Virus record (IMG/VR): IMGVR_UViG_3300030116_000156
Span: 1 to 21,154 of that record
Direction: 5' to 3' (one strand)
DNA from: a virus
DNA length: 21,154 nt
A program made the translations under genes and the position numbers. Every line of letters begins with the position of its first letter. Positions within the stretch are counted from its first letter, which is position 1. A model generated the notes under the pieces. The model searched no databases and was not told the DNA's origin. It saw nothing but the letters and a program-made list of their open reading frames with translations. Of the stretch, positions 2,087 through 20,896 are shown piece by piece.

Positions 2087-2856
2087 AGCGCTTCCTCGTG
2101 GGTGCCTATGTTCTGGTATGGGATGATGTACTGCAGGTTGAGGTCTAGCGTGTACGTGATGCGGTGGTCGTGAGTGAGCAGCCCTGCACCCACCTGGCTC
2201 TTGGGAAGCACAAGCGTTGGCCAGAAGTCATGGTAGCGCACAAGATCGCCCTGGTTGAAGCCCTCCTCAACTGCATAGATGGTATCGCTTCCGCCATAGG
2301 CAATCCGCCCAACTTGATGACTGGCTCCCCCATCACCTGTCTCAGTCTTAGAAATGAGAACACCGTGCCAGCGCTTAGAGAATGGCGGCGCCTGTTCAAT
2401 GACGATCTCATCATTCTGGGCTTCATTGAGGAAGTCTATCTCAGTGGTTGAGTATGCCTTGCAAAGGTTTGGGCCTACCCTGATGACCTTATCGTCAGGG
2501 AATACATCACTGACCAAGCGCGATGCATAGCACTTGTCTTTACGATTAGCGAAGGACACCACGCCACCACGCTCAAGGTGGTTAATCATGTTTGACAGGC
2601 GCCTGAAGAGATCACGATCATTGAAGCGGTCAATGACGATTCTGACATTCTGCCAGGCTCTGGTCATGGTTCTGCTCACACCACCACCAATGGAGTAGGT
2701 GTCAACCACGTCACGCATTGGTGTCACCTGCAGATCAGACAGTTGCTCTCTGTGATCATAAAGATCCAGATAGACCCTCTGCTCAGGGTCATCCATTTCA
2801 AACAGGGTGGTCGCATCAAGCTGGTGAGGGATCCATGAAAAGATGGGATAAGACAT
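2083..2856 (-). CDS. Distal tail-like protein
   Basis: A 257-residue protein directly downstream of the tape measure gene, starting one base after its TAG stop, and overlapping the next gene by ATGA. Position is that of a distal tail (Dit-like) or first baseplate protein, which closes the tail tube and carries the hub. The sequence is beta-rich with no signal peptide, membrane segment or coiled coil visible; the middle part (FANRKDKCYASRLVSD) and C-terminal part (ITYTLDLNLQYIIPYQN) look like alternating strands. I do not recognise a specific family from sequence, so the role rests mainly on synteny. The Shine-Dalgarno is weak (GACGAG), so coupling to tape measure translation is likely. Confidence 0.65.
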   Translation of the reverse strand: MSYPIFSWIPHQLDATTLFEMDDPEQRVYLDLYDHREQLSDLQVTPMRDVVDTYSIGGGVSRTMTRAWQNVRIVIDRFNDRDLFRRLSNMINHLERGGVVSFANRKDKCYASRLVSDVFPDDKVIRVGPNLCKAYSTTEIDFLNEAQNDEIVIEQAPPFSKRWHGVLISKTETGDGGASHQVGRIAYGGSDTIYAVEEGFNQGDLVRYHDFWPTLVLPKSQVGAGLLTHDHRITYTLDLNLQYIIPYQNIGTHEEAL

Positions 2857-2857
2857 T

Positions 2858-5632: not shown

Positions 5633-5639
5633 GTGACCA

Positions 5640-5645
5640 CCTCCT
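5640..5645 (-). promoter_or_regulatory. Strong Shine-Dalgarno of tape measure gene
   Basis: AGGAGG on the minus strand sits 7 nt before the ATG at 5632. The 35-nt gap to the upstream gene makes this one of the few non-overlapping junctions in the tail module, so the tape measure is probably initiated independently. Confidence 0.85.
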
Positions 5646-5667
5646 GATTGTTTAGTTTAGAACTATA

Positions 5668-5910
5668 TTAATCTCGCAGCACAATGACTGGAAAGACCGG
5701 CATGCCGTCTTTGTTAATCCGTTTCATGAGGCCACCAGCCACCTGGTCAGCCTCCATCAAACAGGCCACAGCAAAGCTCATCTCCCAGACATCCATCTCA
5801 AGCACCTCACTTGGCAGCCTTCCGTACCGCTTTGCTATCTGGTCGACTATCAGGAGAATCTCCGGCTCTTTCTCGAAAGGCCTGCAGCCGCTCGACTGCT
5901 GCACCTCCAT
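5668..5910 (-). CDS. Frameshifted C-terminal extension of tail assembly chaperone (GT-like)
   Basis: This frame overlaps the 3' end of the upstream chaperone gene by 104 nt and lies between tail tube and tape measure genes, exactly where lambda G/GT-type pairs sit. It is +1 (equivalently -2) relative to the upstream frame and is open only from just after a TGA at 5925-5923. The possible ATG at 5910 has no clear Shine-Dalgarno, so I favour expression as a fusion by programmed frameshifting. It includes IVDQIAKRYGRLPSEVLEMD and ends EADQVAGGLMKRINKDGMPV, similar in style to the T-domain of tail chaperones, which often carry a tyrosine-glycine-proline helix turn. Independent initiation at 5910 cannot be excluded. 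Confidence 0.7.
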   Translation of the reverse strand: MEVQQSSGCRPFEKEPEILLIVDQIAKRYGRLPSEVLEMDVWEMSFAVACLMEADQVAGGLMKRINKDGMPVFPVIVLRD

Positions 5911-6322
5911 CTGTCGCCAGCTTCATAGCCTCTTGGAATATCTCATTGGATATGTCTGAGGGTATAGACCCAACCCAGAGCGCGCCATTCTTGGCGTCTG
6001 ACTTCTCAGGGTCCAGAACACACGATACTTTCTCCCACTCACCAGTCTCAGGGTCACCCACTCCAATGAGCGCAGCGGCTACTATTGCGTCTTTGAGCCT
6101 GGCCATGGTTTCCAGTTGCTCAGGGCGCGCGCTGGCCATCTGTGTGAGCGCATCCTGCTCACTGGCTTCTTTGCCGTCACCCATTGCCTGGGTCATGGCC
6201 AGTGCCGCATGACCCACTGCAGCCAGGTCGGCTGAGCAGATCTTCTTGATCCTCCAGAGCATAGGCCCTGCCTCGATCTCAATGATCGCACTGTTCTCTA
6301 TTGCTTGCAGTAGTTGACCCAT
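5807..6322 (-). CDS. Tail assembly chaperone (G-like)
   Basis: 171 residues, starting MGQLLQAIENSAIIEIEAGP, with AGGAGAGG 4 nt upstream of the ATG. It lies between the tail tube and tape measure genes, the conserved place of the tail assembly chaperone. The protein is soluble and mostly helical, with a small beta start (EIEAGPMLWRIKKI) and a basic end (SKAVRKAAK). Such chaperones coat the tape measure and recruit tube subunits, and are absent from the virion. Family assignment is by synteny and by the overlapping second frame, not by a diagnostic motif. Confidence 0.75.
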   Translation of the reverse strand: MGQLLQAIENSAIIEIEAGPMLWRIKKICSADLAAVGHAALAMTQAMGDGKEASEQDALTQMASARPEQLETMARLKDAIVAAALIGVGDPETGEWEKVSCVLDPEKSDAKNGALWVGSIPSDISNEIFQEAMKLATDGGAAVERLQAFRERAGDSPDSRPDSKAVRKAAK

Positions 6323-6352
6323 TATCCTCTCCTGGTCTTGGGTTTAGTTAAA

Positions 6353-7357
6353 TCATCCAGCGGCGATAGCTGTGCTGGCTGCGTTCTTGACGATCAGGCG
6401 CGTTCCAAGGTTCAGCCCAGATGAGCCATCACCTTGAGCCTTGAACGTCACGCTAGCTGTGACCATCCCGGTCTCCGAGATCTCATCGGTATAGCTCTCA
6501 ATGTATGCGTTGTTGAGAGTCATCTGCAGCACACGGTTGCTGCTGCCACTGGCGCCATTGTTCACTGTCACTTCAGCGTCAGCCACGTTGTCATTGATGA
6601 ACGCCTTGTATCCAGCCACATCATCAGTCTCAAAGGTGACTGTCATGGTGACAGAGCGGTAGTCAGACTGAACTGGCTGCAGCGTGTTCAGGCTGCCCAG
6701 ATACATCCGCTCAGCTAGACCATTCTCAATCTTGTATTCAAAGTCGATGAGGGTGAATGTGCTGCTGTTCCAGCCAAGGGTGCCAACGTGGTGGTGCAGC
6801 ACGAGGTTCTCATTGGTGGGGTCTGAGAAGCTGAGCGTAGTGTCTCCACGTGGCCCCTCGGTGTCATTACTGGTCTTGCCAATCATGTCCAGAGTCAGGC
6901 TCATGTGCTCGCCTGCTGCACAAGCTAGCGTGAGGGTGTTGAAGACCACGCCAGTGAAGGTCTCTGAATAGTCACTTGTTCCTCTCTGCAGCCTGAGCGT
7001 TGACCCATGTGTGGGGACATCACCCATGGTGTAGGTGTGCTCATACAAGCTGTCGGCCACTGCTGAGCTAGATGAGGCGCCCAGGGCAGCGTCAAGCCAG
7101 TAGCCCATGTTGTCGTAAGTTGCCTCGAGTTCGAGAGAGCCAGAAACCTTATCGGCCACGATGTAGTGCCCTTTGCGTAGACCAGCCACACCAGCAACGC
7201 GTAGATTGGCGCGTTCCACCTTCTCCACCTGGCGCAACATAGAGCAGCTAACCACAGGACGCGTCACGTCTGGTGTGGTCTCTGCTGTGCCCCAGCCTGA
7301 GTCTTCTTTTGCTACGCCGACAAACGAGTTGCGGCCAAAATATGAGGATGTTGCCAT
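6353..7357 (-). CDS. Major tail tube protein
   Basis: 334 residues, beta-rich, starting MATSSYFGRNSFVGVAKEDS, followed by GWGTAETTPD, the type of opening seen in many phage tail tube proteins (a conserved 'xKEttyGT' region). Later segments alternate strands (EHMSLTLDMIGKTSN, SVTMTVTFETDDVAG, TGMVTASVTFKAQG). It lies directly upstream of the chaperone pair and tape measure, the canonical tube position. It would polymerise into the inner channel of the tail. Its translation start region is nearly identical to that of the major capsid gene, fitting another very abundant structural protein. The final strand with a loop (GLNLGTRLIVKNAAS) could be a surface domain. Confidence 0.85.
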   Translation of the reverse strand: MATSSYFGRNSFVGVAKEDSGWGTAETTPDVTRPVVSCSMLRQVEKVERANLRVAGVAGLRKGHYIVADKVSGSLELEATYDNMGYWLDAALGASSSSAVADSLYEHTYTMGDVPTHGSTLRLQRGTSDYSETFTGVVFNTLTLACAAGEHMSLTLDMIGKTSNDTEGPRGDTTLSFSDPTNENLVLHHHVGTLGWNSSTFTLIDFEYKIENGLAERMYLGSLNTLQPVQSDYRSVTMTVTFETDDVAGYKAFINDNVADAEVTVNNGASGSSNRVLQMTLNNAYIESYTDEISETGMVTASVTFKAQGDGSSGLNLGTRLIVKNAASTAIAAG

Positions 7358-8203: not shown

Positions 8204-8673
8204 CACTCACCCCTCTTCTCTGTGTATTCAATAGTGACCCTGAGCGCGGCGACCCCATACCCTGGCACCTGGACAGCCTCACCATCATAGGCAGAGGCGT
8301 CAATCTCAACATCGTGGGCCAGGTTGTTGCAGGTGGGATCATTCTCAAGCGCGCGCATGATGTCAGACTGTGCATTCAGAGCCGACAGCATCGCGTTCTC
8401 TGCCGTTCCTGCTGTGCGGGGCACCCAGACATCCATCTGCACCACAAAGACGCGTGAGTAGCGATTTAGGGGCGTTCTGCCTGCCTGGCGTGATGACTGG
8501 ACTGATACTGGGTAGATGTAGACACCAGGCGCACGCGGTGCCACACCAGTGGGCTCTGAGCCCAAGATGACAGCATCAGTGGCGCTGAAGTCATAGTTGT
8601 AGGAGCCAGAACCATCCACTGCAGCACAGTTGGTCTTCAGCCTCTCAAGTATTGATCGCTCAGTGCTGCCCAT
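8203..8673 (-). CDS. Tail terminator/completion-like protein
   Basis: 156 residues between the gp10-like neck protein and the tail tube region. It starts with a helix (STERSILERLKTNCAAVDGS), continues with a strand region naming an experiment-type pattern of minor tail proteins (RYSRVFVVQMDVWVPRTAGT, ENAMLSALNAQSDIMRALE) and ends in a strand (AALRVTIEYTEKRGE). This helix plus central sheet layout and position match the tail terminator family (lambda gpU or HK97 gp11 like), which caps the tail tube and joins it to the head. Identification is by position and fold style; no catalytic role is expected. The start codon overlaps the previous stop as TGATG. Confidence 0.65.
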   Translation of the reverse strand: MGSTERSILERLKTNCAAVDGSGSYNYDFSATDAVILGSEPTGVAPRAPGVYIYPVSVQSSRQAGRTPLNRYSRVFVVQMDVWVPRTAGTAENAMLSALNAQSDIMRALENDPTCNNLAHDVEIDASAYDGEAVQVPGYGVAALRVTIEYTEKRGE

Positions 8674-9188
8674 CAGGTGATCACCTCAGCGGTGAGGAAG
8701 CTGCCCAGATCCTTCTCGATTCTCTTATTGATGCGGATCCATGAGGGCCTCAAGAATGGGCGCGCTGGGATTCTGACCTGTCTCGCAAAAGCATACTCTG
8801 TCGCCTCACCATCACCCCTGTCAACGCCCACCTCAGTGAATGCGTCAGCGCTCACAGGGAACACCAGATACTTGCCCTTCTTTGGTTTGATGGTGAAGAA
8901 CGTGCCTGGCTCGCCATCCTGCTCATGGACCTTGGCATATTTCACAGGACCACCACCAGCTTGAAGCCGGATCGTGGTGCCGTTCTTGCGCTTGGTGGGC
9001 CTGGCCTTAATGCTCTGAACCAGGTGCCCTGTTCTTGGTGTCAGCACCCTGCTTGCTGTGTGCTTTGACAGCTTCTCCAAGAGTGCTGAATACTTGAGCG
9101 CGCGCCTGTGGAGCGCTGCCAAGATCTCACCTGATGAGTACTTGTCAAGCTCTCTGGCCATCTCTTCCAGTGTGATAGGCGTGCTCAT
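8673..9188 (-). CDS. HK97 gp10-like head-tail joining protein
   Basis: 171 residues. The N-terminal helix (LEEMARELDKYSSGEILAAL) is followed by the family's conserved core: TPRTGHLVQSIKARP, then VKYAKVHEQDGEPGTFF, then ARPFLRPSW near residues 140-150, the 'y...hE.G......paRPFlrpa' signature of HK97 gp10-like proteins. Members form the neck or tail completion ring between connector and tail. The gene lies directly after the gp6-like connector, the standard order. ATG 9188 shares its A with the previous stop. The internal lysine-rich loop (TIKPKKGKYLVFP) is typical of the beta hairpin region. Confidence 0.85.
   Translation of the reverse strand: MSTPITLEEMARELDKYSSGEILAALHRRALKYSALLEKLSKHTASRVLTPRTGHLVQSIKARPTKRKNGTTIRLQAGGGPVKYAKVHEQDGEPGTFFTIKPKKGKYLVFPVSADAFTEVGVDRGDGEATEYAFARQVRIPARPFLRPSWIRINKRIEKDLGSFLTAEVIT
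8675..8686. repeat. 12-bp perfect palindrome at a gene junction
   Basis: AGGTGATCACCT is self-complementary and covers the last codons of the gp10-like gene immediately before the TGATG junction. On the mRNA it contains the only Shine-Dalgarno-like GAGGTG for the next gene, so pairing could limit initiation. It may equally be chance. Confidence 0.5.
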
Positions 9189-9796
9189 CAGCCCACCCAG
9201 GAGGTGGCTAGCGCGTAAGGTTGGAGAGCCATCTTGACCTCTGGCAGAAGTTCAAGAGTCTGCAGTGCCACTGTCTGGCCCTGGCTTGATAGATTGGTGC
9301 GCCCAATGTGAGAGCGCCCCTGATACCAGTGAGCCACCTGCAGACAGGCAGCGTGCTGGATAGCTTTGGGCATTGTGCCCCCAGTATACCCAGCCACATA
9401 GGTGATCTTGATGTGCCTGTTGCCTACTGACCAGGCCGCATCTGTGGCGTTGTAGTCAAGCACCACGCGCCCCTCATGCCCATAGAGCGTATAGTCAGAA
9501 GCGGCTATGAGGTCAGCGCTGTCAGTGTAGTCAAGATCAGGGTCATCATAGACAGAGGTGATGCTGACCACTGGCTTGGCTGTGACGGTAAGCTCACGCC
9601 CACCAGGCCCATCTAAGTACTCGACATAGGTTCCAGACTCCATGCTCACAGCGCCACTGCTTTGCTTGGGGTATCCCATATAGCCAGCAGCCACAGCGTC
9701 AAAGCGGCTGATCAACGTGTTCAGCGTGGCGTCTTCGCCATCACCAGACAGCGTGGGGATGTAGGCTCTAGCCTCAGCAGCAGTGACCACAGCCAT
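9188..9796 (-). CDS. Head-tail connector (gp6-like)
   Basis: 202 residues: VTAAEARAYIPTLSGDGEDA then LNTLISRFDAVAAGYMGYP, the helical opening of phage gp6-like connectors ('ak.ylri..dddd.ll..li..A....e.yl'), followed by a beta region (VEYLDGPGGRELTVTAKPVV, SVYDDPDLDY) and a closing helix (AIQHAACLQVAHWYQGR). These proteins bind the portal ring and provide the adaptor for the neck. The start ATG at 9796 has GAGGGG at good spacing and follows the small gene upstream by 3 nt. The 'VYDDPDLDY...D......G.v.l.y' stretch is very typical of this connector class. Confidence 0.85.
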   Translation of the reverse strand: MAVVTAAEARAYIPTLSGDGEDATLNTLISRFDAVAAGYMGYPKQSSGAVSMESGTYVEYLDGPGGRELTVTAKPVVSITSVYDDPDLDYTDSADLIAASDYTLYGHEGRVVLDYNATDAAWSVGNRHIKITYVAGYTGGTMPKAIQHAACLQVAHWYQGRSHIGRTNLSSQGQTVALQTLELLPEVKMALQPYALATSWVG

Positions 9797-9799
9797 GGT

Positions 9800-9973
9800 T
9801 CACCCCTCTGGATCGGCTTTCTTTTTTGCCTTCTTGGCGGGTGCCTTAGCCTTGACCTCAACCAGCCAGGATGGAATCTCAACACCATCCTCAACCTTGA
9901 TCTCACGCACTTCACCGGCTGCCCAGTGTGACCAGTTTGGCCAGGTCCCATTTCGTGTGGCTTTGAGCTTCAT
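9800..9973 (-). CDS. Small Lys/Ala-tailed protein (57 aa)
   Basis: A short gene of 57 residues filling what would otherwise be a gap between the connector and the Lys-Ala-Pro protein. It begins MKLKATRNGTWPNWSHWAAG, has a middle part EVREIKVEDGVEIPSWLVEV and ends with a basic KAKAPAKKAKKKADPEG. ATG 9973 overlaps the upstream stop (ATGA) and its own TGA is 3 nt before the connector ATG, so it is in register with the operon. The tryptophan-rich N-terminus suggests a small folded domain; the basic tail resembles that of its upstream neighbour. Function unknown; a head accessory or DNA-contacting role is inference. Confidence 0.75.
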   Translation of the reverse strand: MKLKATRNGTWPNWSHWAAGEVREIKVEDGVEIPSWLVEVKAKAPAKKAKKKADPEG

Positions 9974-10290
9974 GACTTGCCCTTCTTGGCTGGCGCTTTG
10001 CGCTTGGCTGGTGCCTTCTTAGCTGGTGCCTTCTTAGCCGGGGCCTTCTTGGCTGGTGCCTTGCGCTTGGCGGGTGCTTTCATTGCTGCAGTCTTCTCAG
10101 GCGCTGCTACTGCTGCACCCTTGGCTGCCTTGTCACTCACGATCTTGAAGTGACCAGGGAACGTGGTGACAAGATAGTCAGCTAGCTCCCTGGTCATTTC
10201 ACGCTCTTCACCCTGAGCAAAGCCCTTGCACTCTGAACCACCATTGTAGATGGTCCAGGCAGAGCCCTCAAGGTGGCGAACTACAGGCAT
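9970..10290 (-). CDS. Small protein with histone H1-like Lys-Ala-Pro tail
   Basis: 106 residues when started at the ATG overlapping the previous stop (TGATG at 10292-10288); a further in-frame upstream ATG at 10329 would overlap the previous gene by 40 bp and is less likely. The N-terminal 50 residues (PVVRHLEGSAWTIYNGG, then MTRELADYLVTTFPGHFKIV) look like a small folded domain. The rest is low complexity, with repeats of KAPAK and KRKAPAK ending KKGKS, like linker-histone or bacterial histone-like tails. Located between the putative decoration protein and the connector, it may bind DNA or the acidic protease tail; this is inference. Confidence 0.75.
   Translation of the reverse strand: MPVVRHLEGSAWTIYNGGSECKGFAQGEEREMTRELADYLVTTFPGHFKIVSDKAAKGAAVAAPEKTAAMKAPAKRKAPAKKAPAKKAPAKKAPAKRKAPAKKGKS
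9973..10083. repeat. Tandem repeats encoding the KAPAK tail
   Basis: Imperfect 12- to 15-bp tandem copies of a CTTCTT-AGCTGGTGC-type unit on the plus strand encode the Lys-Ala-Pro repeats. Copies differ at third positions and alternate AAG-AAG with CGC-AAG, so copy number probably changes by recombination or slippage. Confidence 0.8.
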
Positions 10291-10673
10291 CAGACGCGAC
10301 ACCGTTCGAAGGCAGCGACAAAGGTGCAATTTGCTGATGCTGTCCCGGTCTCTGTGAAGGTGATCTTCAGCACGTCTGTGGCACCAAACTCAAGCGCTGC
10401 GCCTGCAGTGCCTGTGATTGTGAATGCCTGAGCGACCTGTGCAGCATGCTCTGCAGCGCTGCTGTCCAAGCTGGTGACGACGCTGTCACTGCCTTGGGTA
10501 GCAGAGATGACATACTTGTTGGATCCGTCTGCACTGAGTGCAACTTGGGGAACCATAGTGAGCCCTGTGAGCTTCCACTCACCTGACTGACCGTGGCATA
10601 TGCCAATCGTCGCTGATGCCGCTGTAACGGTTCCAGACTCAACTGATACTGAACATGATTCTTGAACTGACAT
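10290..10673 (-). CDS. Putative capsid decoration or minor head protein
   Basis: 127 residues immediately downstream of the major capsid gene, with AGGAG 6 nt before the ATG. The composition is Ala/Thr/Ser/Gly/Val-rich and strongly beta, with alternating segments (VSVESGTVTAASATIGI, DVLKITFTETGTASANCTF) and a central helix-like AAEHAAQVAQAF. A small beta-protein right after the capsid gene commonly decorates the capsid surface, but no family motif is recognised. Four cysteines are spread along the chain. Called by position only. Confidence 0.55.
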   Translation of the reverse strand: MSVQESCSVSVESGTVTAASATIGICHGQSGEWKLTGLTMVPQVALSADGSNKYVISATQGSDSVVTSLDSSAAEHAAQVAQAFTITGTAGAALEFGATDVLKITFTETGTASANCTFVAAFERCRV

Positions 10674-10682
10674 GGGGAACTC

Positions 10683-12149
10683 CTAGAGGTTGAACAGGTA
10701 TTTAAGGTTCTTCTTGGAGCTATCATCGACGGTGAAGAAGGCCTCTCGCACGGTCGCCACCATCTGGTGTGTTCCGCGTGTGATGTCCTTGTCGACCTCG
10801 ATCTGGGCACCACGAAGCGCGCCGATCTTGAAGCGATCACGGTTGACCATCAGCATGCCTGAAGTAGCACCAGAGTTGGTGAACTTACCTGATGCGTTCA
10901 GATCTGCACCCATGAACTCACTGATGATGATGGGCATTCCGTAGACCTCCCCTAGCTGACCACTCACAATTGTCGGCTTGGGGTGAACGTCCATGGTCTG
11001 GACTTGGTCCATAGCCAGGAGATGCTTGAAGTATGCCTCTGGCGAGGTGATCAAGATCAGAGATCCTGCCACACCGTGTGGGCTGTCCAGGTTGGAGCGG
11101 TCATCAAGCAACGTGTCAGCGTTGAAGGTTGCGCGGTTCTCTGTGTTGCTCACATCATAGGCACGCGCCCGCAATCCAATCCAAGCTCGCCTATGGTCGG
11201 CAGACCCGCCAAGGCCAGAAGCGCCCCATCGCCCGCGAATATTCCAAGAGGCCAAGGCACCTGAAGCATCATCAATGTGGACGCCGGATGTATCACTGTT
11301 TCCGGTGTCACCGTTGATGATGGCATCTTCCTCGCCATCGACCAGGGCGCTGATCAGTTCAGCCCGTACAGTTGGAAGCACTGCAATGATTGAGTCTTCA
11401 TCTGCATCATCTGAGACCTGAGCCCGTACAGCAAAGCCAGTTGCTGAGATGGTGCGCTGCTCTGTCACCATGCTGCTGCTGGTGTACTGTGCAGGGTCAT
11501 CCGATGTGGCCGCTGCTTTGATATAAGGCCGGAAGCCCGTGCTCAAGTATGGAAGCAGGGTGGTGGAGTTTGGAAGCTGCATGGTGTCGAATGCTGATGC
11601 AACGCGACGTTCCGCTGTCAGGTTGCGCTCAAGCGCTGGCAGCATCTCATCAGGGATCCACTCAGCACCTACGCCAGACGCATCCGCGAAGATTCGCTGC
11701 ACTTCCACAGGTGCCTTGCGTGCGATCTCACGCACACGTGCCAGGCACTTGGGAGCGCCTCCACGGCCACTGAGGTTCTTGACCAGTGTGTAGTCACTCA
11801 CAGCGCTCTGCAGTTCTTCCTGCCAGTCACAGACGGGAGCATCTTGAAGAAGGCCAGGCATAAATGCCTTGTCGCGTGTCTGCTCACCCTTCAAGCGTAC
11901 AGACCCATCAGGGCGGCAGTACTTCTGCAGTGAGGCGTTGCTTGATGTAGTAGATCCACCAGGGCGGTTCTCCATCTCGCTGACGCGCTTTTGAATCGCG
12001 AGGAGATCAGCAGCTTTCTTGTCTGCGTTCTCCATGAGATTGCGGTTGGCCTTCTTGAGGCGGATCTGCTCAGCACGCAGATCGTGCATCGCTTTCCGCG
12101 CCTTGTCGGGCGTCGATAGGTCAAGGTTGGAAGTCTGACGATCTGCCAT
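10683..12149 (-). CDS. Major capsid protein, HK97 fold with N-terminal delta domain
   Basis: 488 residues. Residues about 12-62 are a charged coiled coil (KARKAMHDLRAEQIRLKKAN), typical of the HK97-type delta (scaffolding) domain that the prohead protease removes. The body carries features of the HK97 fold: a long helix with ALVDGEEDAIINGDTGNSDT near residue 280, the 'inGdg' region, a P-domain stretch EVYGMPIIISEFMGADL, and a final AHQ-type strand (THQMVATVREAFFTVDDSS). It follows the protease gene and has its own candidate promoter and strong leader. Some 90 residues between the coiled coil and the core (PDGSVRLKGEQTRDKAFMPG) may hold the cleavage site. Start chosen by GGAGAC 6 nt upstream. 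Confidence 0.92.
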   Translation of the reverse strand: MADRQTSNLDLSTPDKARKAMHDLRAEQIRLKKANRNLMENADKKAADLLAIQKRVSEMENRPGGSTTSSNASLQKYCRPDGSVRLKGEQTRDKAFMPGLLQDAPVCDWQEELQSAVSDYTLVKNLSGRGGAPKCLARVREIARKAPVEVQRIFADASGVGAEWIPDEMLPALERNLTAERRVASAFDTMQLPNSTTLLPYLSTGFRPYIKAAATSDDPAQYTSSSMVTEQRTISATGFAVRAQVSDDADEDSIIAVLPTVRAELISALVDGEEDAIINGDTGNSDTSGVHIDDASGALASWNIRGRWGASGLGGSADHRRAWIGLRARAYDVSNTENRATFNADTLLDDRSNLDSPHGVAGSLILITSPEAYFKHLLAMDQVQTMDVHPKPTIVSGQLGEVYGMPIIISEFMGADLNASGKFTNSGATSGMLMVNRDRFKIGALRGAQIEVDKDITRGTHQMVATVREAFFTVDDSSKKNLKYLFNL

Positions 12150-12211: not shown

Positions 12212-13118
12212 TGCCGAATACAGATCCCAGCGGATCAGCTTGTCTGGTTCTGTGGCTGTCTACGTGTGAACATGATGATCGGGCGCTCTTGATTGTGGGG
12301 GCTGTCAGAACCTCAAGGTCTGCCTCACCCAGCACTTCAATGAGCACCTCTTGGACCAGGGCCTTGAGCGCATGCTTGACCATGTGCTTGGCTTCCTCGT
12401 CCTCTTCTTCTTCCTCTTCATCCCCTATGGCTTCCTCTTCCTCATCCCCATAGACGCCTTGCTCCTCATCCTCATCCTCAAGGGCTTCTTCTTCTTCCTC
12501 ATCACCAAAGGCCTCCTCCTCAATCTCATCCTCTGGCTCTTCTTCCTCAGCCATAGCCTCATCATGTTTGGCATAGGTGACGATGTAGGAGTCATCAGTC
12601 TCCTCAACACTCAGGATGTGCTTCAACTGAGATGCGCCATAGCCGCGAAGCGCTAACGCCTCGCCATTGGCTGGCACTGGTACGGCTGATATTTCTAGCA
12701 ATTGGTTCTGTTCGAATAGCATTCCAGAGGCTCCATAGGCTGGGTGGTCTGTGGGGAGTTTGTTGCGAGGTGTAGAGCGGCCAGGCTGGAAGCCCACTGA
12801 GACAGCAGAAAGGAAGCCCTCTCTGAACTGACGCGCCACTGTCTGGCCAAGGGGGTTGGTGGGTGAATCATCCCACCTGATGGTGGCCACCAGGTTGCCA
12901 TCCTTGTCTGTGGTCAGCTTCTCTGTCTTGCCGACTGGGGGCGTTGAGTAGTCATGGCCGAACTGCACCACTGGGTTGGCCAGGTACTTGTCAAGCCGCC
13001 ACTCATCACCACCTGCCACCACGTCATCGTAGCGATCAGGTGTGGGGGTGCTTGCGATCACTGTGGTGGTGGACGCTGTCTTTGACTTGATCTGGGTTGA
13101 ATAGGATCTTTTCTTCAT
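12201..13118 (-). CDS. Prohead protease with acidic C-terminal domain
   Basis: 305 residues from the ATG that overlaps the portal stop (ATGA); an in-frame ATG nine codons earlier would reach into the portal gene. Residues 1-155 match the HK97 prohead protease (S78) family: ASTPTPDRYDDVVAGGDEW, VVQFGHDYSTPPVGK with the likely catalytic His about 55, and EGFLSAVSVGFQPG with the likely catalytic Ser about 107, then EISAVPVPAN. It would cleave the capsid delta domain during maturation. Residues about 190-243 are almost entirely Glu/Asp, followed by a helix (VKHALKALVQEVLIEVLGEA) and a polar end. Such a tail is unusual for the family and could act as an internal scaffold or bind the basic head proteins; that is inference. 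Confidence 0.9.
   Translation of the reverse strand: MKKRSYSTQIKSKTASTTTVIASTPTPDRYDDVVAGGDEWRLDKYLANPVVQFGHDYSTPPVGKTEKLTTDKDGNLVATIRWDDSPTNPLGQTVARQFREGFLSAVSVGFQPGRSTPRNKLPTDHPAYGASGMLFEQNQLLEISAVPVPANGEALALRGYGASQLKHILSVEETDDSYIVTYAKHDEAMAEEEEPEDEIEEEAFGDEEEEEALEDEDEEQGVYGDEEEEAIGDEEEEEEDEEAKHMVKHALKALVQEVLIEVLGEADLEVLTAPTIKSARSSCSHVDSHRTRQADPLGSVFGIDK
12390..12551. repeat. CTTCCTC-type low-complexity tract encoding acidic repeats
   Basis: A pyrimidine-rich plus-strand tract made of TCC, TCT and CTC triplets, encoding repeats of the kind AxGDEEEEEA in the protease tail. Three spaced copies of a GDEEEE block are recognisable. The opposite frame reads as an artificial hydrophobic protein and is not a gene. 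Confidence 0.8.
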
Positions 13119-15790
13119 ATCTTCACCGAGGGTAGGAATGTGCATCTACAGTTGATGTCAAGGCCAGCAACACCAAAGCCACCAGGGGCTGACGCCTTGG
13201 CGCCATCTATCTCCCAGAAGCCATCATCACCTCTGACCTTCCCATTGAGTGCAGCGTGCTCTTCGCGCGCGCCTGGCTGAGCCTTCCACTTGAGTTCAAG
13301 CTCTACGCCTGCCTCATCTGCCATCTGTTCCCAGGCATTGACGCCAGCAGCGTTGATTGACTTGGTGGATTCGGTTCTCGCGATCTTCAGCGCGCGGCTA
13401 GCGTTGAATGAAGGCGCCTGCATGATCTGCTTCTGCATGTCAGCAATGGTGTCACCAGCGTCAAGCGCTGAGAGAATGATGCGCCTGACATTCTTGCGCG
13501 TTGTGGCTGTGATGGACTTGTCAGCGATCACATAGCCACCCTTGCCATCTGGCCTCACGCCAATCATCTCACCAAGCTGCTCATCAACCTTCTTGTCAGT
13601 CTCATCATGGTCATAGACAAACTCGATCTCGTCTGGCATGTCATCAACTGCAGCCTCAGCGCCCCTCTTCCAGGCGTCAGAGACAACGTCTCTAATCGCA
13701 TCATCAAGGATCTGGCCCTCAGCGTATGCGTCAAGCAGCGTGTCAAGCCAGCCCTCATCAAGCTCAGCCTTGAGCACAATGTCACCAGAGGCTGTCTTCT
13801 TGCTGATCACCTGTGGCAGGCGCTTGGCTATCCTTGACGCGTAGCCCTTGAAGTATCTGAGGATAGCTAACTGCAGGGCCTTCTCTGATGGGCTGTGGAT
13901 GTCATCAGCCCAGGCACGCCAGAGCGTGTCTTCAATCTGCTTGGTGATGCCCTTGTCAGTGTTCTCCATCTGGCCAACGAGCTTCTCACTCCAAGAGACT
14001 GCAGGATCACCACCCCACAGCGCCCAGGCTACGCGACCAGGAGAAGGATAGCCCTCTTCACCAGGGCTGAACCCTTCACCTGTCTTGTCTGACTTGTGAC
14101 GGGCTAACCAGGCGCGCATCTTCACAGCCTTCTCAGGGCTGATGTCTTCACCGTTGGCCATGCGTCTGGCCCATGAGACAGTGGCAGGCACAAGCCCATC
14201 ACCAGACAGGCCCTCATCATGCCACTTCAGGCCACGCTCTAGCTCAGCCTTCACGCCTTCAGGAACTGAGAAGTCAATATCATCATAGAGAGCGCGCCTG
14301 GCTTCTGTCAGGCTTTGCTCTGTTGGTGCATCTGGATCATCTACTGCCTGAGCGCCAGCCAGGATCTCACGGGCTGAAGACTCACTGATAGTGGGGAAGG
14401 CCACACTGATCAGAGCCAGGGCAGCGTCGAAAGTGATCGCACCCATGGCCACGCTTGACAGGATCTGCAGCAGGCTGGCTATCTGGGCACCATTCAGGGC
14501 AGTGGCTGCAAGCGGCTCATCTGTTGGCGCTTCAGTCTGGCCATCAATCTCATTGGGCTCAGCGTTCTCATCTGCGATCTCAGCAGGCTCTTCATCTGCC
14601 TGGGTCAGCGGCAGGTCATCAAAGCCCTCATAGGCTGCAGCGTCTGATGCAGAGACGCCAAGCATGGTCCACTCCATCACGCGGTTCAGCCTTTCTGATC
14701 TGCTCTCTTGGAGGCTCTCCACCTCACTGAAGTCATGCTTGATGACCACATCTTCATCACCCAGCATCCTAGCTAGGCGCGTGAGTTCTGAGTCCACCAG
14801 GGCAGCGCGTCCTTGGAGGCTTTCCCAGTAGAGTTGAAGCTGGTTCCTGCTCTGGCTGTAGTTCGCTGTCTCAAGGCCAAGACGCACAGGCACACACCCA
14901 AAGGCGGCGATGGTGCTGGCCCTCACAAAGTCTCTGACCTGGCTGAACTCCATCTCTCGTGGCGTGATCTGCAGCTTGTCGAACTGAGCCTGCCCACCAA
15001 GGATGAGCACACCAGAACCACCTGCCCTCATCTGCTTCTCATAGGCGTCTCTGAGGGTGCCGATCTGTTCTCGGCTCCATCGGTCACCATCTTCCTTCGG
15101 TGACAGGATGCCTGTCGGCTGACCAGTGGCGGCTGTGCGTGCGGCCAGTGCAGCCTGTGCCTTCTCTGTGGTCAGGTCATTGTGCAGCGGCTGGACAGCG
15201 CCAATGCCCCACAGGTTAGTGGGATCATCAGACCAGGATGGCCCCCTGATGTGCAGAACTTGATCGTGCTCATAGAGGGCTGGCTGACCATGGCCTGACT
15301 CATACTGGTACTTGTCAGGCTGGCCATCTGAGAGGGGTGAGATCTTGACGCGTGCTGGGTGCATCCTGATGAGGGCGTCCACCCTGCCAGCGCTTCCAGC
15401 CATCAGGCAAAACGCATTGCCAGACAGCACCAGGTCCGTGTATAGCTGGCGCCTAAACAGCACACCATTCACCCGTGAACTGGGCTGGCTCAGCAGTTCC
15501 AGAACGGGGTGAGTGTCAAGCACTTCAGCCTCTGACCCTCTGCCCCTGTAGGCTCTGAGGGGCACTTTGCTGAGGTCTGTCGATATGGCCTGCACAGCCG
15601 CGAACGGCCATGGGAATGCAGCAAGGGCTGACATGGCTGCTGATGGGTCATAGCCTGCCTTGAATGGAGTATCTTCAATGAAGTCAGCACCAGCGCTGTG
15701 GCTTACTTTGCCATCAGGATCAACCTTCACCAACCCCACTGCACGCAGTAGAGACGCGATGATTCCAGGCTTGACGATCAGATTGTTCAC
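13115..15790 (-). CDS. Portal protein fused to WGGD-domain and MuF domain
   Basis: 891 residues. Residues 1 to about 390 are an HK97-type portal (FAAVQAISTDLSKVPLRAYR, NGVLFRRQLYTDLVLSGNAF, LETANYSQSRNQLQLYWESL). Residues about 432-480 resemble a portal C-terminal helical segment (LNGAQIASLLQILSSV). Residues about 506-608 form a domain I know from many environmental phage head proteins, with GLKWHDEGLSGDGL, MRAWLARHKSDKTGEGF and WALWGGDPAVSW. Residues about 620-886 are a MuF-like (minor head protein) domain ending in the NCRC signature. One chain thus forms the packaging ring and carries internal head parts. It starts with GTG; no in-frame ATG occurs until codon 53. Shine-Dalgarno is weak. 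Confidence 0.9.
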   Translation of the reverse strand: MNNLIVKPGIIASLLRAVGLVKVDPDGKVSHSAGADFIEDTPFKAGYDPSAAMSALAAFPWPFAAVQAISTDLSKVPLRAYRGRGSEAEVLDTHPVLELLSQPSSRVNGVLFRRQLYTDLVLSGNAFCLMAGSAGRVDALIRMHPARVKISPLSDGQPDKYQYESGHGQPALYEHDQVLHIRGPSWSDDPTNLWGIGAVQPLHNDLTTEKAQAALAARTAATGQPTGILSPKEDGDRWSREQIGTLRDAYEKQMRAGGSGVLILGGQAQFDKLQITPREMEFSQVRDFVRASTIAAFGCVPVRLGLETANYSQSRNQLQLYWESLQGRAALVDSELTRLARMLGDEDVVIKHDFSEVESLQESRSERLNRVMEWTMLGVSASDAAAYEGFDDLPLTQADEEPAEIADENAEPNEIDGQTEAPTDEPLAATALNGAQIASLLQILSSVAMGAITFDAALALISVAFPTISESSAREILAGAQAVDDPDAPTEQSLTEARRALYDDIDFSVPEGVKAELERGLKWHDEGLSGDGLVPATVSWARRMANGEDISPEKAVKMRAWLARHKSDKTGEGFSPGEEGYPSPGRVAWALWGGDPAVSWSEKLVGQMENTDKGITKQIEDTLWRAWADDIHSPSEKALQLAILRYFKGYASRIAKRLPQVISKKTASGDIVLKAELDEGWLDTLLDAYAEGQILDDAIRDVVSDAWKRGAEAAVDDMPDEIEFVYDHDETDKKVDEQLGEMIGVRPDGKGGYVIADKSITATTRKNVRRIILSALDAGDTIADMQKQIMQAPSFNASRALKIARTESTKSINAAGVNAWEQMADEAGVELELKWKAQPGAREEHAALNGKVRGDDGFWEIDGAKASAPGGFGVAGLDINCRCTFLPSVKI

Positions 15791-15825: not shown

Positions 15826-17223
15826 TCACCCAATGTCAAAGTCAGAATAGGACAGCCTTGAGCAGCAGTATCTAAGGGCGTCCAGTGCGTGATCCTTCTG
15901 TCGTGGTTTTGGCTGGTCTCTGGACTCACCCACCCCACGCTCATCCCACACATAAGTCTCAAACTCATGGATCAGGTTGGTGCAGGTATCAAACACCAGC
16001 AGGGCAGGGTTGCCCTCAACGTCAAAGGCCAGCCGCTCGCAGACATCATTGATGCCACCTCGCACAGACCCACGCCCCTTCTTGGCTGGCACGTTGGCCA
16101 GGCCATGCTCTCTGGCTAGCGCCAGGCGGCTGCCTCTGTCCTCTGGGTCAGCCACTATCCACCTGGGCTGGCCATAGGTGTTGATCAGTTCATGCAGCTT
16201 GGCAGCGTGCTGGCTGAGAGTCCACTCTGCCTGGTAATGCTCAGCCACTACCACCAGGGTGTCGTTGCTGGGATCAATCATGCAGACCACAGCCGCAAAG
16301 GGCGCGCGCGTACCAAAGTCGATGCCGATATAGGGGCCAACCCAGTGGTCAGGAATGGGGCCAGCCTTGATGACGTGGGTGGCACGCTGGAAGTCTGAAT
16401 AGATGCGCCCCTCAAGCGTGGTCCATTCACCCCTCTCTCTAGCTGCTCTCTCATGTGGCCCATACTGCTTCAGCAGTCTCTCAAGCGCTCCCGCTGGGAT
16501 GTGGGGGTTGTCAATCCCATGGATCCAGTGGACGCGTGCATCCTCTGGGGTGGTGCTGATCCAGCGGTCGTAAAGCCAGGTCATTCCCCTCAGCGGAGTC
16601 ATGGAGAAGATGCAGCGCCCTCTTCTGTCTACCAGGCGCATCAGCGCCTCATTGACCACAGCCTGGTCAGCAGGCTCTTCATCAAACCAGACCAGATCCA
16701 CAGCCGCGCCCTGGAATCCGTCTCGGCCCATGTCCACTGATGGGAACATGATGCGACCACCACCAGGCAGCCTGACCTCAGCGCGACCATACCCAAACTG
16801 ATTGCGCCACTTGGCGTCAGGGGGCAGGTATGCTGTGACTGCAGGGCGCAGATACTCACGGCTGTCACCTGAATCCAGAGCCACAGCCCACACGTTGCCA
16901 GGCCTGTTGGGCAGAGAGGACAGAGGCACCCCATTCTTCTGGCACCACTCTATTGAGTCAGGGTGATCCCTGCCGAGCGCTGAGGCCACTGCATACTGAG
17001 CACAGCCTGCCGTCTTGCCTGATCTGTTGCCACCACAGATGATGGTCACTAGCTCACCCAGATCCTGAAAGGCGCGGCGCTGTGATGTCTTGGGCCTCTC
17101 TCTATGCCAGAGCCTGGCGAGGGCCAGCGGCCTGTCACGCTTCATCTGCTTCAGGGCGTCTACCAGTTCAACCACATCAGCAAGCGCCCCCAGGTCAAGG
17201 GGATCAAGGGGATCAAGGTTCAT
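15826..17223 (-). CDS. terL: Terminase large subunit
   Basis: 465 residues. The ATPase domain has Walker A GGNRSGKT (residues 64-71), Walker B VDLVWFDEE (175-183, with the catalytic Asp-Glu) and a coupling SMTP (207-210). The nuclease domain has IDFGT (Asp 302), VADPED (Asp 359) and DHALDALRY (Asp 444 and 448), the acidic set of the RNase H-like terminase nuclease. Hence both motor and cleavage activities look intact. The N-terminus carries a short 9-bp tandem repeat (LDPLDPLD). Its start overlaps the stop of the glycosyltransferase gene as ATGA, so it is translated together with the modification genes. It moves DNA into the prohead and cuts it. Confidence 0.96.
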   Translation of the reverse strand: MNLDPLDPLDLGALADVVELVDALKQMKRDRPLALARLWHRERPKTSQRRAFQDLGELVTIICGGNRSGKTAGCAQYAVASALGRDHPDSIEWCQKNGVPLSSLPNRPGNVWAVALDSGDSREYLRPAVTAYLPPDAKWRNQFGYGRAEVRLPGGGRIMFPSVDMGRDGFQGAAVDLVWFDEEPADQAVVNEALMRLVDRRGRCIFSMTPLRGMTWLYDRWISTTPEDARVHWIHGIDNPHIPAGALERLLKQYGPHERAARERGEWTTLEGRIYSDFQRATHVIKAGPIPDHWVGPYIGIDFGTRAPFAAVVCMIDPSNDTLVVVAEHYQAEWTLSQHAAKLHELINTYGQPRWIVADPEDRGSRLALAREHGLANVPAKKGRGSVRGGINDVCERLAFDVEGNPALLVFDTCTNLIHEFETYVWDERGVGESRDQPKPRQKDHALDALRYCCSRLSYSDFDIG

Positions 17224-18107
17224 GGCCTGGGCCTCTTGGTCTTCTTGCGGGTGCTCTCATGCACGATCATGGGGGCTGTCTTCTTCCAGTCAACGCGGTG
17301 GTGCAGCCTGAGCCTGGTGTCACCCATGGCCTGGACTCTGACGCAAGATGGCTGAATCATCACTGAGTAAAAGCTCTTCACATAGGTGCCGATCTCCAGG
17401 TAGTGCTCTGTGAGTCCTCCCTTATTGGTCTGGGTGTCTTCCTGGCAGAGGCTCACCTGGTTCAGCGTGAACATCAGATCCCCCTGAACTGCCCTGTTGA
17501 CGTAGGTGTTGGCGTCCTCATTGATGGTCCCAATGAAGCTGAATGGCCTGTCAACGCTGCAGATAAAGCTGTTCATGGCCTTGCGTGACAGCCTGAGCTT
17601 CTTGGCGTTCTGGCTGTCCTTGCCTCCTATGAAGTCACCACCCTGGGCCATGGTCAGAGTCAGTGCTGGTGTGGACCTGTAGAAGTCCAGCATGGCCTTG
17701 AACACCAGATCCAGGCTCTTGATCTTGCCCCTGGTCACAAACTCCAGGCGATCATTGAAGCGATACTCAAACCAGAAGTAGTCATCATCCAGCACTATGA
17801 AGTGCTTGATCCCCAGGTCTCTGGCTATCTGGTGGCAGGTGTTGCGAGCATAGACCACCACATTCATGCGGTTGAAGTTGTCACAGGTGTCAGTGGCTTC
17901 AGCGGCAGCAGCCTTGTCAAAGACCACAACTTCATCACCATACCTCTTCACATACTCATCAAGGGTGGCATCCATGTCATCCACCACGATCACAATGCGC
18001 CCTGTGTAGCCACCATTCTTGAGGGCCTTGTATGTCTTCAGGTTTGACGGCCTGCCATGGCTCAGGATGAACGCAGCAAAGTCATCCATGGTCCACCTGA
18101 TAGGCAT
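17220..18107 (-). CDS. TET/JBP-associated glycosyltransferase (TAGT-like), predicted DNA base glycosylation
   Basis: 295 residues from the first ATG (a second at 18089 has AGGTGG just upstream and is an equal candidate). The sequence follows the TET/JBP-associated glycosyltransferase family closely: FILSHGRPSNLKTYKAL, GRIVIVVDDMDATLDEYVKR, NVVVYARN, the metal-binding HFIVLDDDYFWFEYR (DDD at about 107-109), LTMAQGGDFIGG, AMNSFICSVDRPFSFIGTINEDANTYVNRA read as adjacent blocks, GGLTEHYLEIGTYVKSFYSVMIQPS and a final RLHHRVDWKK. Family members are predicted to add sugars to oxidised methylpyrimidines in phage DNA. It sits between the ParB-like and TerL genes with overlaps at both ends, so modification may be timed with packaging (inference). 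No signal peptide or membrane segment. Confidence 0.9.
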   Translation of the reverse strand: MPIRWTMDDFAAFILSHGRPSNLKTYKALKNGGYTGRIVIVVDDMDATLDEYVKRYGDEVVVFDKAAAAEATDTCDNFNRMNVVVYARNTCHQIARDLGIKHFIVLDDDYFWFEYRFNDRLEFVTRGKIKSLDLVFKAMLDFYRSTPALTLTMAQGGDFIGGKDSQNAKKLRLSRKAMNSFICSVDRPFSFIGTINEDANTYVNRAVQGDLMFTLNQVSLCQEDTQTNKGGLTEHYLEIGTYVKSFYSVMIQPSCVRVQAMGDTRLRLHHRVDWKKTAPMIVHESTRKKTKRPRP

Positions 18108-18873
18108 CTGCCAGGTCTGCTGTCAGCTTCACAAAGCCCCTCTCAACTGCCTGGTTGAAGTCAATGATGACCAGGGCTGACTCTTCCATCAGGGCCTGAA
18201 CGTCAGCAGGGGCGTGGGCATAGTACTCAGCAATCAGGTCATACCTGAACCCTGTGTGCCTCTTGGCAGCAGCCACCAGGAACTCACGCAGATCATCATC
18301 TATGTCAGCGCTCATGATCCTCTCAATCAGAGCCAGCGCCTTGCCTTGGTCATATAGCTCACTCACATCAGGGCACTCCCCTGTCACCTCATAGATGGGG
18401 CTCTCAACCTTGGCTGTGTAGATGTTGTCATCTGTCTCACTGGGTGCTGTCAGTAGGGCGTCAAGCTCATCATCACTGAAGCCCAGGGTGCCTGGGTCAA
18501 AGTCAGGGTCATAGCTCAGCAGGTCAGCCAGGTGGGCGCTCAGGATCTCATCATCCCAGCCAGCTAGCTCCCCAGATCGGTTCAGCACTATGGACAGCTT
18601 GCGTGCCTGGGTGTCATCCACATCAAGCACAGCACAGGCCACCTCAGTGAATCCAAGCTCACCCATGACCTTGAGGCGGCCATTGCCATGGATCACTCTG
18701 TTGCTGCTCTTCTGGACCACCACTGGCTCCACCTGGCCATGCTCATTGATGCTGGCCTTGATGGCTGCCAGGTTGCGTGGATTGCGCGCTCTGGGGTTCT
18801 CAGTGTCATGGTGCAGGTCAGCCACTGCCATCAGTCTGTGCTCAAAGCTCACAGCGCTCTGGGGTTGGTTCAT
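18082..18873 (-). CDS. ParB/sulfiredoxin-fold nuclease-like protein
   Basis: 263 residues. Residues about 12-120 form a ParB N-terminal-like domain: MAVADLHHDTENPRARNPRN, INEHGQVEPVVVQKSSNRVI and HGNGRLKVMGELGFTEV with the GxxR-like HGNGR (62-66), then AWDDE-type closing region. Residues about 150-263 form a second domain (YTAKVESPIYEVTGECPDV, RYDLIAEYYAHA, SALVIIDFNQAVERGFVKL) that I recall occurring after such ParB domains in phages. Relatives are often encoded beside terminase and TAGT genes, where ParB folds are suggested to be nucleases or NTP-dependent DNA binders. It overlaps the small terminase gene (ATGA) and the TAGT gene (26 bp). Confidence 0.85.
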   Translation of the reverse strand: MNQPQSAVSFEHRLMAVADLHHDTENPRARNPRNLAAIKASINEHGQVEPVVVQKSSNRVIHGNGRLKVMGELGFTEVACAVLDVDDTQARKLSIVLNRSGELAGWDDEILSAHLADLLSYDPDFDPGTLGFSDDELDALLTAPSETDDNIYTAKVESPIYEVTGECPDVSELYDQGKALALIERIMSADIDDDLREFLVAAAKRHTGFRYDLIAEYYAHAPADVQALMEESALVIIDFNQAVERGFVKLTADLADAYQVDHG

Positions 18874-19358
18874 TTCTCTGGCTCCTCTGTGAAGGTGGCC
18901 TCAATGGCCATCTGGGTTGGTTGGTCTGGGTGTGATGCCAGTAGGCCCTTGATCATGGGCAGTGCATCTCTGAGCCTGTTGAGCAGTTCATCAGGGTCTC
19001 TGGTGTGGGTGTGTGTGACCTCCACCTGGGCTGGCTCATAGACCCCCAAGGCCTGGCCCTCAAGCTGCATCAACCTGGCTGCTGCCATGCTGTGGCCATT
19101 GCGGAATGAACGCGCCTGGGCACCCCTCACTCTCATCAGCCAGTCAGACCTGTCAGCCTCTCTGCTGGTGGTGCTCACCTGCTCCTGCCAGGTCTCTCTG
19201 ATCTTGGCTGCATCTCTCTGGACCTGGCGCAAGCCCACCCCATATCTCTCAGCTAGTCCAAGGGCGCTGGCTCTGGTGTACTCCCCTGCAAGCATGACAG
19301 CCTCAACTGCAGCCAGGCGTGCAGCCACCTGTTCATCTGTGCTCTTACGCCCTGCCAT
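18870..19358 (-). CDS. Terminase small subunit-like protein
   Basis: 162 residues. The N-terminal 60 residues look like a helix-turn-helix (LAGEYTRASALGLAERYGVG, then LRQVQRDAAKIRETW), a DNA-binding layout of small terminases. A helical middle (DWLMRVRGAQARSFRNGHSM) and an acidic end follow. It is the first gene of the leftward packaging operon and directly precedes the ParB-like, TAGT and TerL genes. GGAGAGAGG lies just upstream of the ATG. Small terminases recognise the packaging start and regulate TerL. Called by position plus HTH; a phage regulator is the alternative. Confidence 0.7.
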   Translation of the reverse strand: MAGRKSTDEQVAARLAAVEAVMLAGEYTRASALGLAERYGVGLRQVQRDAAKIRETWQEQVSTTSREADRSDWLMRVRGAQARSFRNGHSMAAARLMQLEGQALGVYEPAQVEVTHTHTRDPDELLNRLRDALPMIKGLLASHPDQPTQMAIEATFTEEPEK

Positions 19359-19741: not shown

Positions 19742-20052
19742 TGCAGGCGTTGATCGATCAGTTGTTAGCTGGTGGTCACCTTGGTCTCTTTGCGGCCTTC
19801 CTGGTCTGGCAGCACATTAAGAATGAGAAGCGCAATGACTACCTGGTCAAGTCCTTCCAGGCTCAACTCAAAGAGATCACAGACGACTATGACAGCCGTA
19901 TCCTGGCGATGAGAGAGCGCTATGACGTGGTGCTGAGAGAAGCGCGCCAGGAGAGAGACGCTGATGCGCGTGACTTCTTGGTGGCCAGGGCAGCGATCCA
20001 AGAGCAGATCGTGAACAAACTAGACCAGATCCTGGTCAGGCTTGAGAAATAG
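19741..20052 (+). CDS. Small one-TM coiled-coil membrane protein (holin-like?)
   Basis: 103 residues from the ATG sharing its A with the previous stop (TGATG); GTG at 19738 is also in frame. Residues about 6-25 (DQLLAGGHLGLFAAFLVWQH) form one short hydrophobic segment, and the rest is a charged coiled coil (AQLKEITDDYDSRILAMRER, AAIQEQIVNKLDQILVRLEK). One TM followed by a coiled coil is the layout of BhlA/UviB-like phage holins and of other small phage membrane proteins. No lysin gene is in the window to support a lysis role. Its 3' end overlaps the convergent methyltransferase gene by 17 bp. Confidence 0.7.
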   Translation: MQALIDQLLAGGHLGLFAAFLVWQHIKNEKRNDYLVKSFQAQLKEITDDYDSRILAMRERYDVVLREARQERDADARDFLVARAAIQEQIVNKLDQILVRLEK

Positions 20053-20896
20053 CCATACTCCCAGCCTCATTCATACACTCGCCACAGATGCTATTCCAGC
20101 CGTCAATCTGTGCCGTGTATTGTTTGCGCTGACCACAGCATCTGCACTTCCGTAGGTTTGGCGAGTCATCAGCAGATGTAGACATCTCCCATGTACTATC
20201 AACACACTTTCGACATAGCCTAACGCCTAAACGCCCTGATTCCTTGCCACAGACGATCATGGATTCGGGATGCCTCACACGTCGGTCACACCCAGAACAC
20301 TTGCGTGGATAGGCGGGCAGTGGCCTCAGTTCTTGCCAGCCAACGACGGGCTTGAGAAGTGAGCGCATGAAGTCCTCTGGCAGTTCACTCTCGATCTCAT
20401 TGCCCCACACCAGCCACCCCTCTCTGAAGTCTCTGGCGAACATCTCCAAGCGTGGTCCAATGCTCCTGGCCTCAATCAGTTCATATGCCTCAGCAGGCTT
20501 CTGGCTGTGCTTGCCTCTTGGGGCGTGGATGACTGATCCCAGCGTCTTCAAGTCAGTCTTCACGCTGAAGCCCCTGCCCCTGGTGCCGAATAGAAGGTGC
20601 TCATGCTGCCCTCTGAAGTATTGGCCAAGCCCCTTGGGGCCACTCTTGATCCACACCGCATTGGTCTTGTACTGGAAGCCCAGCGCCCCCATCAGCCATA
20701 TAGCGTCAGGCAGGTGGTTCACTGTTGCCCACATATACAGGTGGCAGTCCTTGTTTGGCAGGAACTCACCTGAGCCCAGGATGACCCCAGGCATGTCTGC
20801 TGTCTTGACCAGGGGGTAGTGCCTATCAGCGCCCCTCTTGATCCTGCCACCACCTTGCTCATTCCATGGTGGATCAATCACGATCGTGTTGTACAT
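20036..20896 (-). CDS. MT-A70 family adenine-N6 methyltransferase with cysteine-rich C-terminus
   Basis: 286 residues. Residues 1-170 are an MT-A70-type methyltransferase: VIDPPW (catalytic DPPW at 8-11), CHLYMWATVNHLPDAI, QYKTNAVWIKSGPKG, GQHEHLLFGTRG, HSQKPAEAYELIE and RLEMFARDFREGWLVWGNE. It should transfer a methyl group from S-adenosylmethionine to adenine N6 in DNA. Residues about 198-276 add three cysteine clusters (RKCSGCDRR, LCRKC, KCRCCGQRK and ICGEC) that look like zinc ribbons for DNA binding or target choice. AGGAGGGG lies just upstream of the ATG. No restriction partner is seen, so self-protection or regulation is likely. The zinc part is less CpG-poor than the catalytic part (hand count). 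Confidence 0.92.
   Translation of the reverse strand: MYNTIVIDPPWNEQGGGRIKRGADRHYPLVKTADMPGVILGSGEFLPNKDCHLYMWATVNHLPDAIWLMGALGFQYKTNAVWIKSGPKGLGQYFRGQHEHLLFGTRGRGFSVKTDLKTLGSVIHAPRGKHSQKPAEAYELIEARSIGPRLEMFARDFREGWLVWGNEIESELPEDFMRSLLKPVVGWQELRPLPAYPRKCSGCDRRVRHPESMIVCGKESGRLGVRLCRKCVDSTWEMSTSADDSPNLRKCRCCGQRKQYTAQIDGWNSICGECMNEAGSMAISQA

Follow-up and report, generated by a model that had tools for sequence, protein, structure and literature searches.

What does a predicted glycosyltransferase do between the genes of the two terminase subunits, and what does it act on? The question is raised by the window analyzed here, a stretch of 21,154 nucleotides covering positions 1 to 21,154 of the viral record IMGVR_UViG_3300030116_000156, in which an initial annotation had read a row of overlapping TerS-like, ParB-like, TAGT-like and TerL genes as a TET-dependent DNA hypermodification system.

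Gene row and protein families in the window

The features of the row are as follows; residue conservation is given for the homologues compared.

15826-17223, minus strand: TerL, large terminase subunit (Terminase_6N and Terminase_6C, both over cut-off)
17220-18107 as listed, likely start 18089, minus strand: TAGT-family glycosyltransferase (GT); PF20691 over residues 12-231, GT-A fold model
17298-17303, minus strand: H269-H270, C-terminal His motif of the GT (invariant, 31 homologues)
17514-17522, minus strand: NED, N196-E197-D198, xED-type motif of the GT (N196 and D198 invariant, E197 in at least 90%, 31 homologues)
17781-17789, minus strand: DDD, D107-D109, DxD-type nucleotide-sugar/metal motif of the GT (invariant, 31 homologues)
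18082-18089, minus strand: 8-nt overlap ATGGATGA, joining the ParB-like stop and the likely GT start (same 8-nt overlap in relatives)
18082-18873, minus strand: ParB-like partner protein, 263 aa (phrog_620, E 2e-47; ParB_N, PF02195, over cut-off)
18106-18432, minus strand: helical partner domain, about residues 148-256 (last ~110) of the ParB-like protein, found only beside this GT class
18580-18831, minus strand: ParB_N domain, residues 15-98, with the GxxR pocket as G63-N-G-R66 (Pfam and AF2 model)
18870-19358, minus strand: TerS-like ORF, 162 aa, possible small terminase subunit by position and helix-turn-helix-like look

The annotated order and the overlap at every junction were confirmed, as were the ParB-like, TAGT and TerL identities; TerS is a call by position only, the 162-aa ORF giving no significant match in Pfam, PHROGs or NCBIfam, and the GT start is shifted. 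The TerS-like and ParB-like genes overlap by 4 nt, the ParB-like and GT genes by 26 nt as listed, and the GT and TerL genes by 4 nt. The ATG at 18089, inside the 8-nt overlap, is the likelier GT start rather than 18107, because homologues begin there and an overlap of 8 nt is the commonest among homologous pairs (55/87, with 11 nt in 23/87). Elsewhere on the minus strand, the window encodes an MT-A70-type adenine DNA methyltransferase whose C-terminal part is rich in cysteine and resembles a zinc ribbon (20036-20896) and an 891-aa portal protein with a fused Mu gpF-like domain (13115-15790).

A Pfam profile search placed the GT inside the TAGT family, as the initial annotation had proposed, at 112.4 bits against PF20691 (curated cut-off, 27.5; E 4e-32). 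Its AF2 model (pLDDT 84), which like that of the ParB-like protein is a single-chain model, has a GT-A fold and aligns to GT-A enzymes with a Z score of 14.6 and 3.5 Å over 196 residues. The solved folds closest to the model are protein and polysaccharide transferases, and a search of solved structures by sequence gave no convincing relatives of the GT. Since the DDD, NED and HH motifs and the GT-A fold are kept, the GT is predicted to be active and should use a nucleotide sugar.

The ParB-like protein belongs to the ParB/Srx superfamily, with a ParB_N domain carrying the GxxR pocket. ParB_N scored 30.5 bits (Pfam cut-off, 26.3), the phrog_620 match covers nearly the full length of the protein, and G63 and R66 are invariant in 29 homologues. 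The AF2 model of the domain has the ParB/Noc/KorB/sulfiredoxin fold, with VIA as the best match (Z 12.0, 3.1 Å over 132 residues), and residues 86-145 weakly match the middle domain of Spo0J (Z 5.2). Among the genes next to the pair, no ParA gene was noticed.

The partner domain and its pairing with the glycosyltransferase

The C-terminal part of the ParB-like protein forms a separate helical domain that has not been described before and that, when used as query, turned up only immediately upstream of this GT. It has no Pfam family, and its motif reads AA-RH-x-x-F...IA-YYAH...LME-SALVIID...AI-x-G. No fold match was found for it when searched as part of the whole ParB-like model, for which ParB_N filled the match lists. 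The pairing with the GT was strict in both search directions. With the domain as query, 28 of 28 records from the phage collection carried this GT, and the GT lay directly downstream in all 17 loci of a domain-first IMG/VR scan. Starting from the GT, the domain was upstream in 87 pairs of the first set, with two exceptions, both at contig edges; the second set of 98 GTs comprised 88 direct pairs, 7 pairs with one methyltransferase-like gene in between, 2 contig edges and 1 tandem second GT.

The partner domain also stands without ParB_N, in Vibrio phage pv27 (139 aa) and in many IMG/VR loci (128 to 157 aa), and where the surroundings were read these shorter versions sit among replication genes (DUF1376, DnaB and sliding clamp). 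Because the domain is often found in this form and away from terminase genes, the core unit is the partner domain plus the GT. ParB_N is an optional add-on to that core and elsewhere in phages accompanies DNA methyltransferases or DpdA.

Searches recovered the pair from roughly 200 viral loci and from 34 phage records, among them E. coli Rac-like prophages, Lactobacillus, Nocardia and Vibrio phages and a haloarchaeal virus. A tblastn search with the GT matched 35 phage records, from viruses of E. coli, Salmonella, Lactobacillus, Vibrio, Nocardia, Porphyromonas and Haloarcula, and many more in IMG/VR; one of the 35, Vibrio phage 1.124.O (E 3e-6), belongs to another TAGT branch. No partner domain was found in the plasmid search, and carriage of the pair by plasmids was rejected. 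Some dairy phages (Lactobacillus delbrueckii phages LL-Ku, Ld17 and phiLdb) give interrupted or truncated matches to the GT, which suggests that the gene is dispensable there.

The order ParB-GT-(TerS)-TerL recurs in c5, phi jlb1, Porphyromonas phage005a, NTR1 and coliphage 683R6, and in HHTV-2 several small genes lie between the pair and TerL. This recurrence in unrelated phages rules out a chance arrangement. TerL is just downstream of the pair in at least 20 of 21 tested nonredundant IMG/VR loci, and the adjoining terminases are of the Terminase_6, GpA, Terminase_3 and TerL_ATPase classes. Other surroundings comprise replication genes, an N4/N6 DNA methyltransferase and a sliding clamp. The terminase was rejected as an obligate partner, as the core is also present away from it. 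The proposal that decoration occurs late, at packaging, does not hold generally, since the core also lies in replication blocks far from terminase genes.

Several loci carry further genes linked to the pair. Nucleotide-sugar epimerase/dehydratase genes lie beside it or one to two genes away (L078, positions 6105-7082; L224, positions 3530-4582); they are possible suppliers of the sugar donor, which fits use of a nucleotide sugar by the GT. A family of SAM-methyltransferase-like proteins (253 to 282 aa) accompanies the pair in metagenomic viruses and matches nothing in 50,697 phage records. Its gene separates the partner domain from the GT in seven loci (L164, L165, L172, L173, L174, L189 and L202), lies just upstream of the pair in L224 and L110, and is also tied to the pair in L008. 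Two TAGT domains are fused in L075 (positions 5053-6702), the second being similar to the TAGT of P12024L and to those of Aeromonas phages, Aeh1 among them, and two partner-GT pairs stand in tandem in L030. Both arrangements suggest more than one sugar step. In a likely prophage of a Blautia genome (L111, positions 8388-10849), one ParB-partner gene is followed by two tandem GTs. The extra TAGT domains, tandem pairs and SAM-methyltransferase-like genes fit a decorated glycan, without proving one.

The TET pathway and the source of the acceptor

The initial annotation held that the TET and methyltransferase partners must be elsewhere in the genome, so that the GT would glycosylate hydroxymethyl-pyrimidines formed by a phage TET/JBP dioxygenase acting on C5-methyltransferase products. 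PF20691 is named for its TET association, the window is only a fragment, and a real operon of this kind exists in Nonlabens phage P12024L, where gp26-gp27-gp28 are TET, TAGT and methyltransferase. Profile searches with Tet_JBP (PF12851) nevertheless found no match in 74 pair-bearing viral records (0/43 and 0/31) and none in nine host genomes, while P12024L, the positive control, was detected at 2.8e-29. Because many of the records are fragments, this negative result carries full weight only for genomes that are complete or nearly so (HHTV-2, c5, jlb1, NTR1 and pv27), in all of which it also holds. No phage record appears both among the 32 that contain TET relatives and among the 35 that match the GT. 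A C5-MTase was found in 2 and a thymidylate-synthase/hydroxymethylase family member in 1 of 32 pair-bearing records, neither of them in the window, and another dioxygenase family, the 2OG-Fe(II) oxygenases, in 0 of 20. Among the 25 of 39 families listed for the complete 31.8-kb phage c5 there was no TET, C5-MTase or hydroxymethylase-type enzyme. TET/JBP, C5-MTase, thymidylate synthase and 2OG-Fe(II) oxygenase were each rejected as the acceptor source, none being common to the carriers.

In a tree of 25 GTs, those of the pair form one group (support, 87/93) apart from P12024L, Kuja, 1.124.O and T6, with an outer placement that is unsure because of long branches. The P12024L operon resembles the window in having a phage-encoded PF20691 GT, but it combines a TET with a methyltransferase, and no ParB gene is annotated in its vicinity, whereas the window pair has ParB_N and the partner domain and belongs to a separate branch, a lineage not found with TET. 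We therefore consider a TET-based route very improbable here. The claim of partners elsewhere in the genome is unsupported, as judged from relatives of a window that is itself a fragment. A DNA-modifying role with a ParB-like partner in a terminase context remains plausible; it is the TET pathway of the initial annotation that is not supported.

Alternatively, the acceptor could be a modification made by the host or by an unrecognized phage enzyme and then glycosylated by the pair in DNA or RNA. The enzyme action would be the same as in the reading that we prefer below, the difference lying in self-containment. Enzymes of this class normally use a hydroxyl group as acceptor, many genes of both hosts and phages lack annotation, and pv27 encodes a thymidylate-synthase-family enzyme. 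However, the carriers' hosts include Haloarcula, Lactobacillus, E. coli, Nocardia and Porphyromonas, a diversity that makes a single host-made base unlikely, and no extra phage gene was seen to be common to the carriers, though many of their genes are unannotated. We regard such an outside source as rather unlikely.

Glycosylation of DNA as the preferred reading

The pair is a real, widespread module, and glycosylation of DNA is the best reading of its function, although unproven; we infer DNA as the GT target from the genomic context and the family. In the form that we favor, the pair is a self-contained phage cassette that glycosylates phage DNA, with the partner domain as an obligate companion and the nature of the acceptor left unspecified, and we hold this to be slightly more probable than its opposite. 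The GT-A enzyme would move a sugar from a nucleotide sugar to phage DNA, and the partner domain, translationally coupled to the GT, would hold or direct it. Beside the terminase, the NTP-binding, DNA-engaging ParB_N of the partner would serve to load the complex of partner and GT onto DNA, by analogy with DpdB for DpdA and, presumably, with ParB_N-DNA methyltransferase fusions. The purpose would be protection from restriction.

This reading is supported by the inseparability of partner domain and GT in both search directions, together with the kept GT motifs and fold. It is also supported by the epimerase/dehydratase, SAM-methyltransferase-like and extra TAGT genes, and by surroundings of terminase, replication, methyltransferase and clamp genes. 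A further line of support comes from the PF20691 member of T6-like phages, for which addition of a second glucose to already glucosylated DNA cytosine is regarded as the likely activity (PMC13390438). T6-type TAGTs are named beta-glucosyl-HMC-alpha-glucosyltransferase in PHROGs. The T6 protein shares PF20691 membership with the window GT but scores 39 bits against 112 bits, and T6 is not among the matches listed for the partner-domain search in the phage collection. The T6 TAGT acts on hmC, which dCMP hydroxymethylase produces.

The relatives of ParB_N also argue for DNA. The best ones beyond its own family are in DNA methyltransferases (phrog_498, E 8e-34, PHROGs), and in 5 of 10 sampled ParB_N loci a ParB_N-DNA methyltransferase is encoded no more than about 3 kb from terminase genes; against this, four other sampled phages with ParB_N-methyltransferases have no terminase annotated next door. 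In Mycobacterium phage Hilltopfarm (L128, positions 202-5630), a ParB-like gene, DpdA-like and preQ0 genes and a terminase gene stand in one run, and this association of ParB with DpdA and terminase likewise favors DNA. DpdB has been reported as a ParB-like ATPase that acts with DpdA and drives preQ0 insertion (PMC12839542), ParB_N adjoins CmoX cytosine carboxymethyltransferases, in which its role is unknown (PMC12783734), and a ParB-methylase with nicking activity has been reported (PMC5512222). The window resembles the ParB_N-methyltransferase fusions and DpdB with DpdA in pairing ParB_N with a DNA modifier, often near the terminase. In contrast to them, the modifier in the window is a GT, and ParB_N is joined to the new partner domain rather than to a methyltransferase. 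No DpdA was present among the annotated neighbors of the pair, unlike in Hilltopfarm.

Two further points stand against DNA. Most carriers have no recognized enzyme making a hydroxylated base, which leaves the acceptor unexplained. The acceptors used by GT-A enzymes vary widely, and the closest solved folds are those of enzymes acting on proteins or polysaccharides. The GT could accordingly modify a protein, such as the terminase, a virion protein, the partner itself or a host protein, with ParB_N only bringing it to DNA. Peptide glycosyltransferases are among the structural neighbors of the GT model, and the pair abuts the terminase in most loci. However, the adjoining terminases are of several classes, the core also occurs without a terminase among replication genes, no protein is known here as common to all carriers apart from the partner itself, and PF20691 includes the T-even member attributed to DNA glucosylation. 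A protein target therefore seems unlikely to us. Within the preferred reading of a DNA target, the pair might add sugar without a hydroxymethyl or hydroxyl base, either N-linked to a canonical base or at an acceptor created by the partner domain. Such a two-protein route independent of TET and hydroxymethylase is a speculative proposal to which we give a low probability.

If the pair does glycosylate DNA without TET or hydroxymethylase, it would represent an overlooked DNA-modifying chemistry in about one-sixth of complete E. coli genomes as well as in bacterial and archaeal phages, and the labels "hmC" or "TET-associated" glycosyltransferase would mislead annotation. The role of ParB domains in DNA-modifying systems would also become testable in a two-protein setting, because versions with and without ParB_N exist. 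In E. coli Rac-like prophages the same pair, with no difference in architecture, consists of ynaK and a gene that RefSeq names GREB1-related protein in some genomes; no function for these two genes was found in the literature searched. At least 80% of the pair is present in 885 of 5,426 complete E. coli genomes. K-12-derived strains such as NEB_Turbo keep only about 15% of it, which makes K-12 a natural null background.
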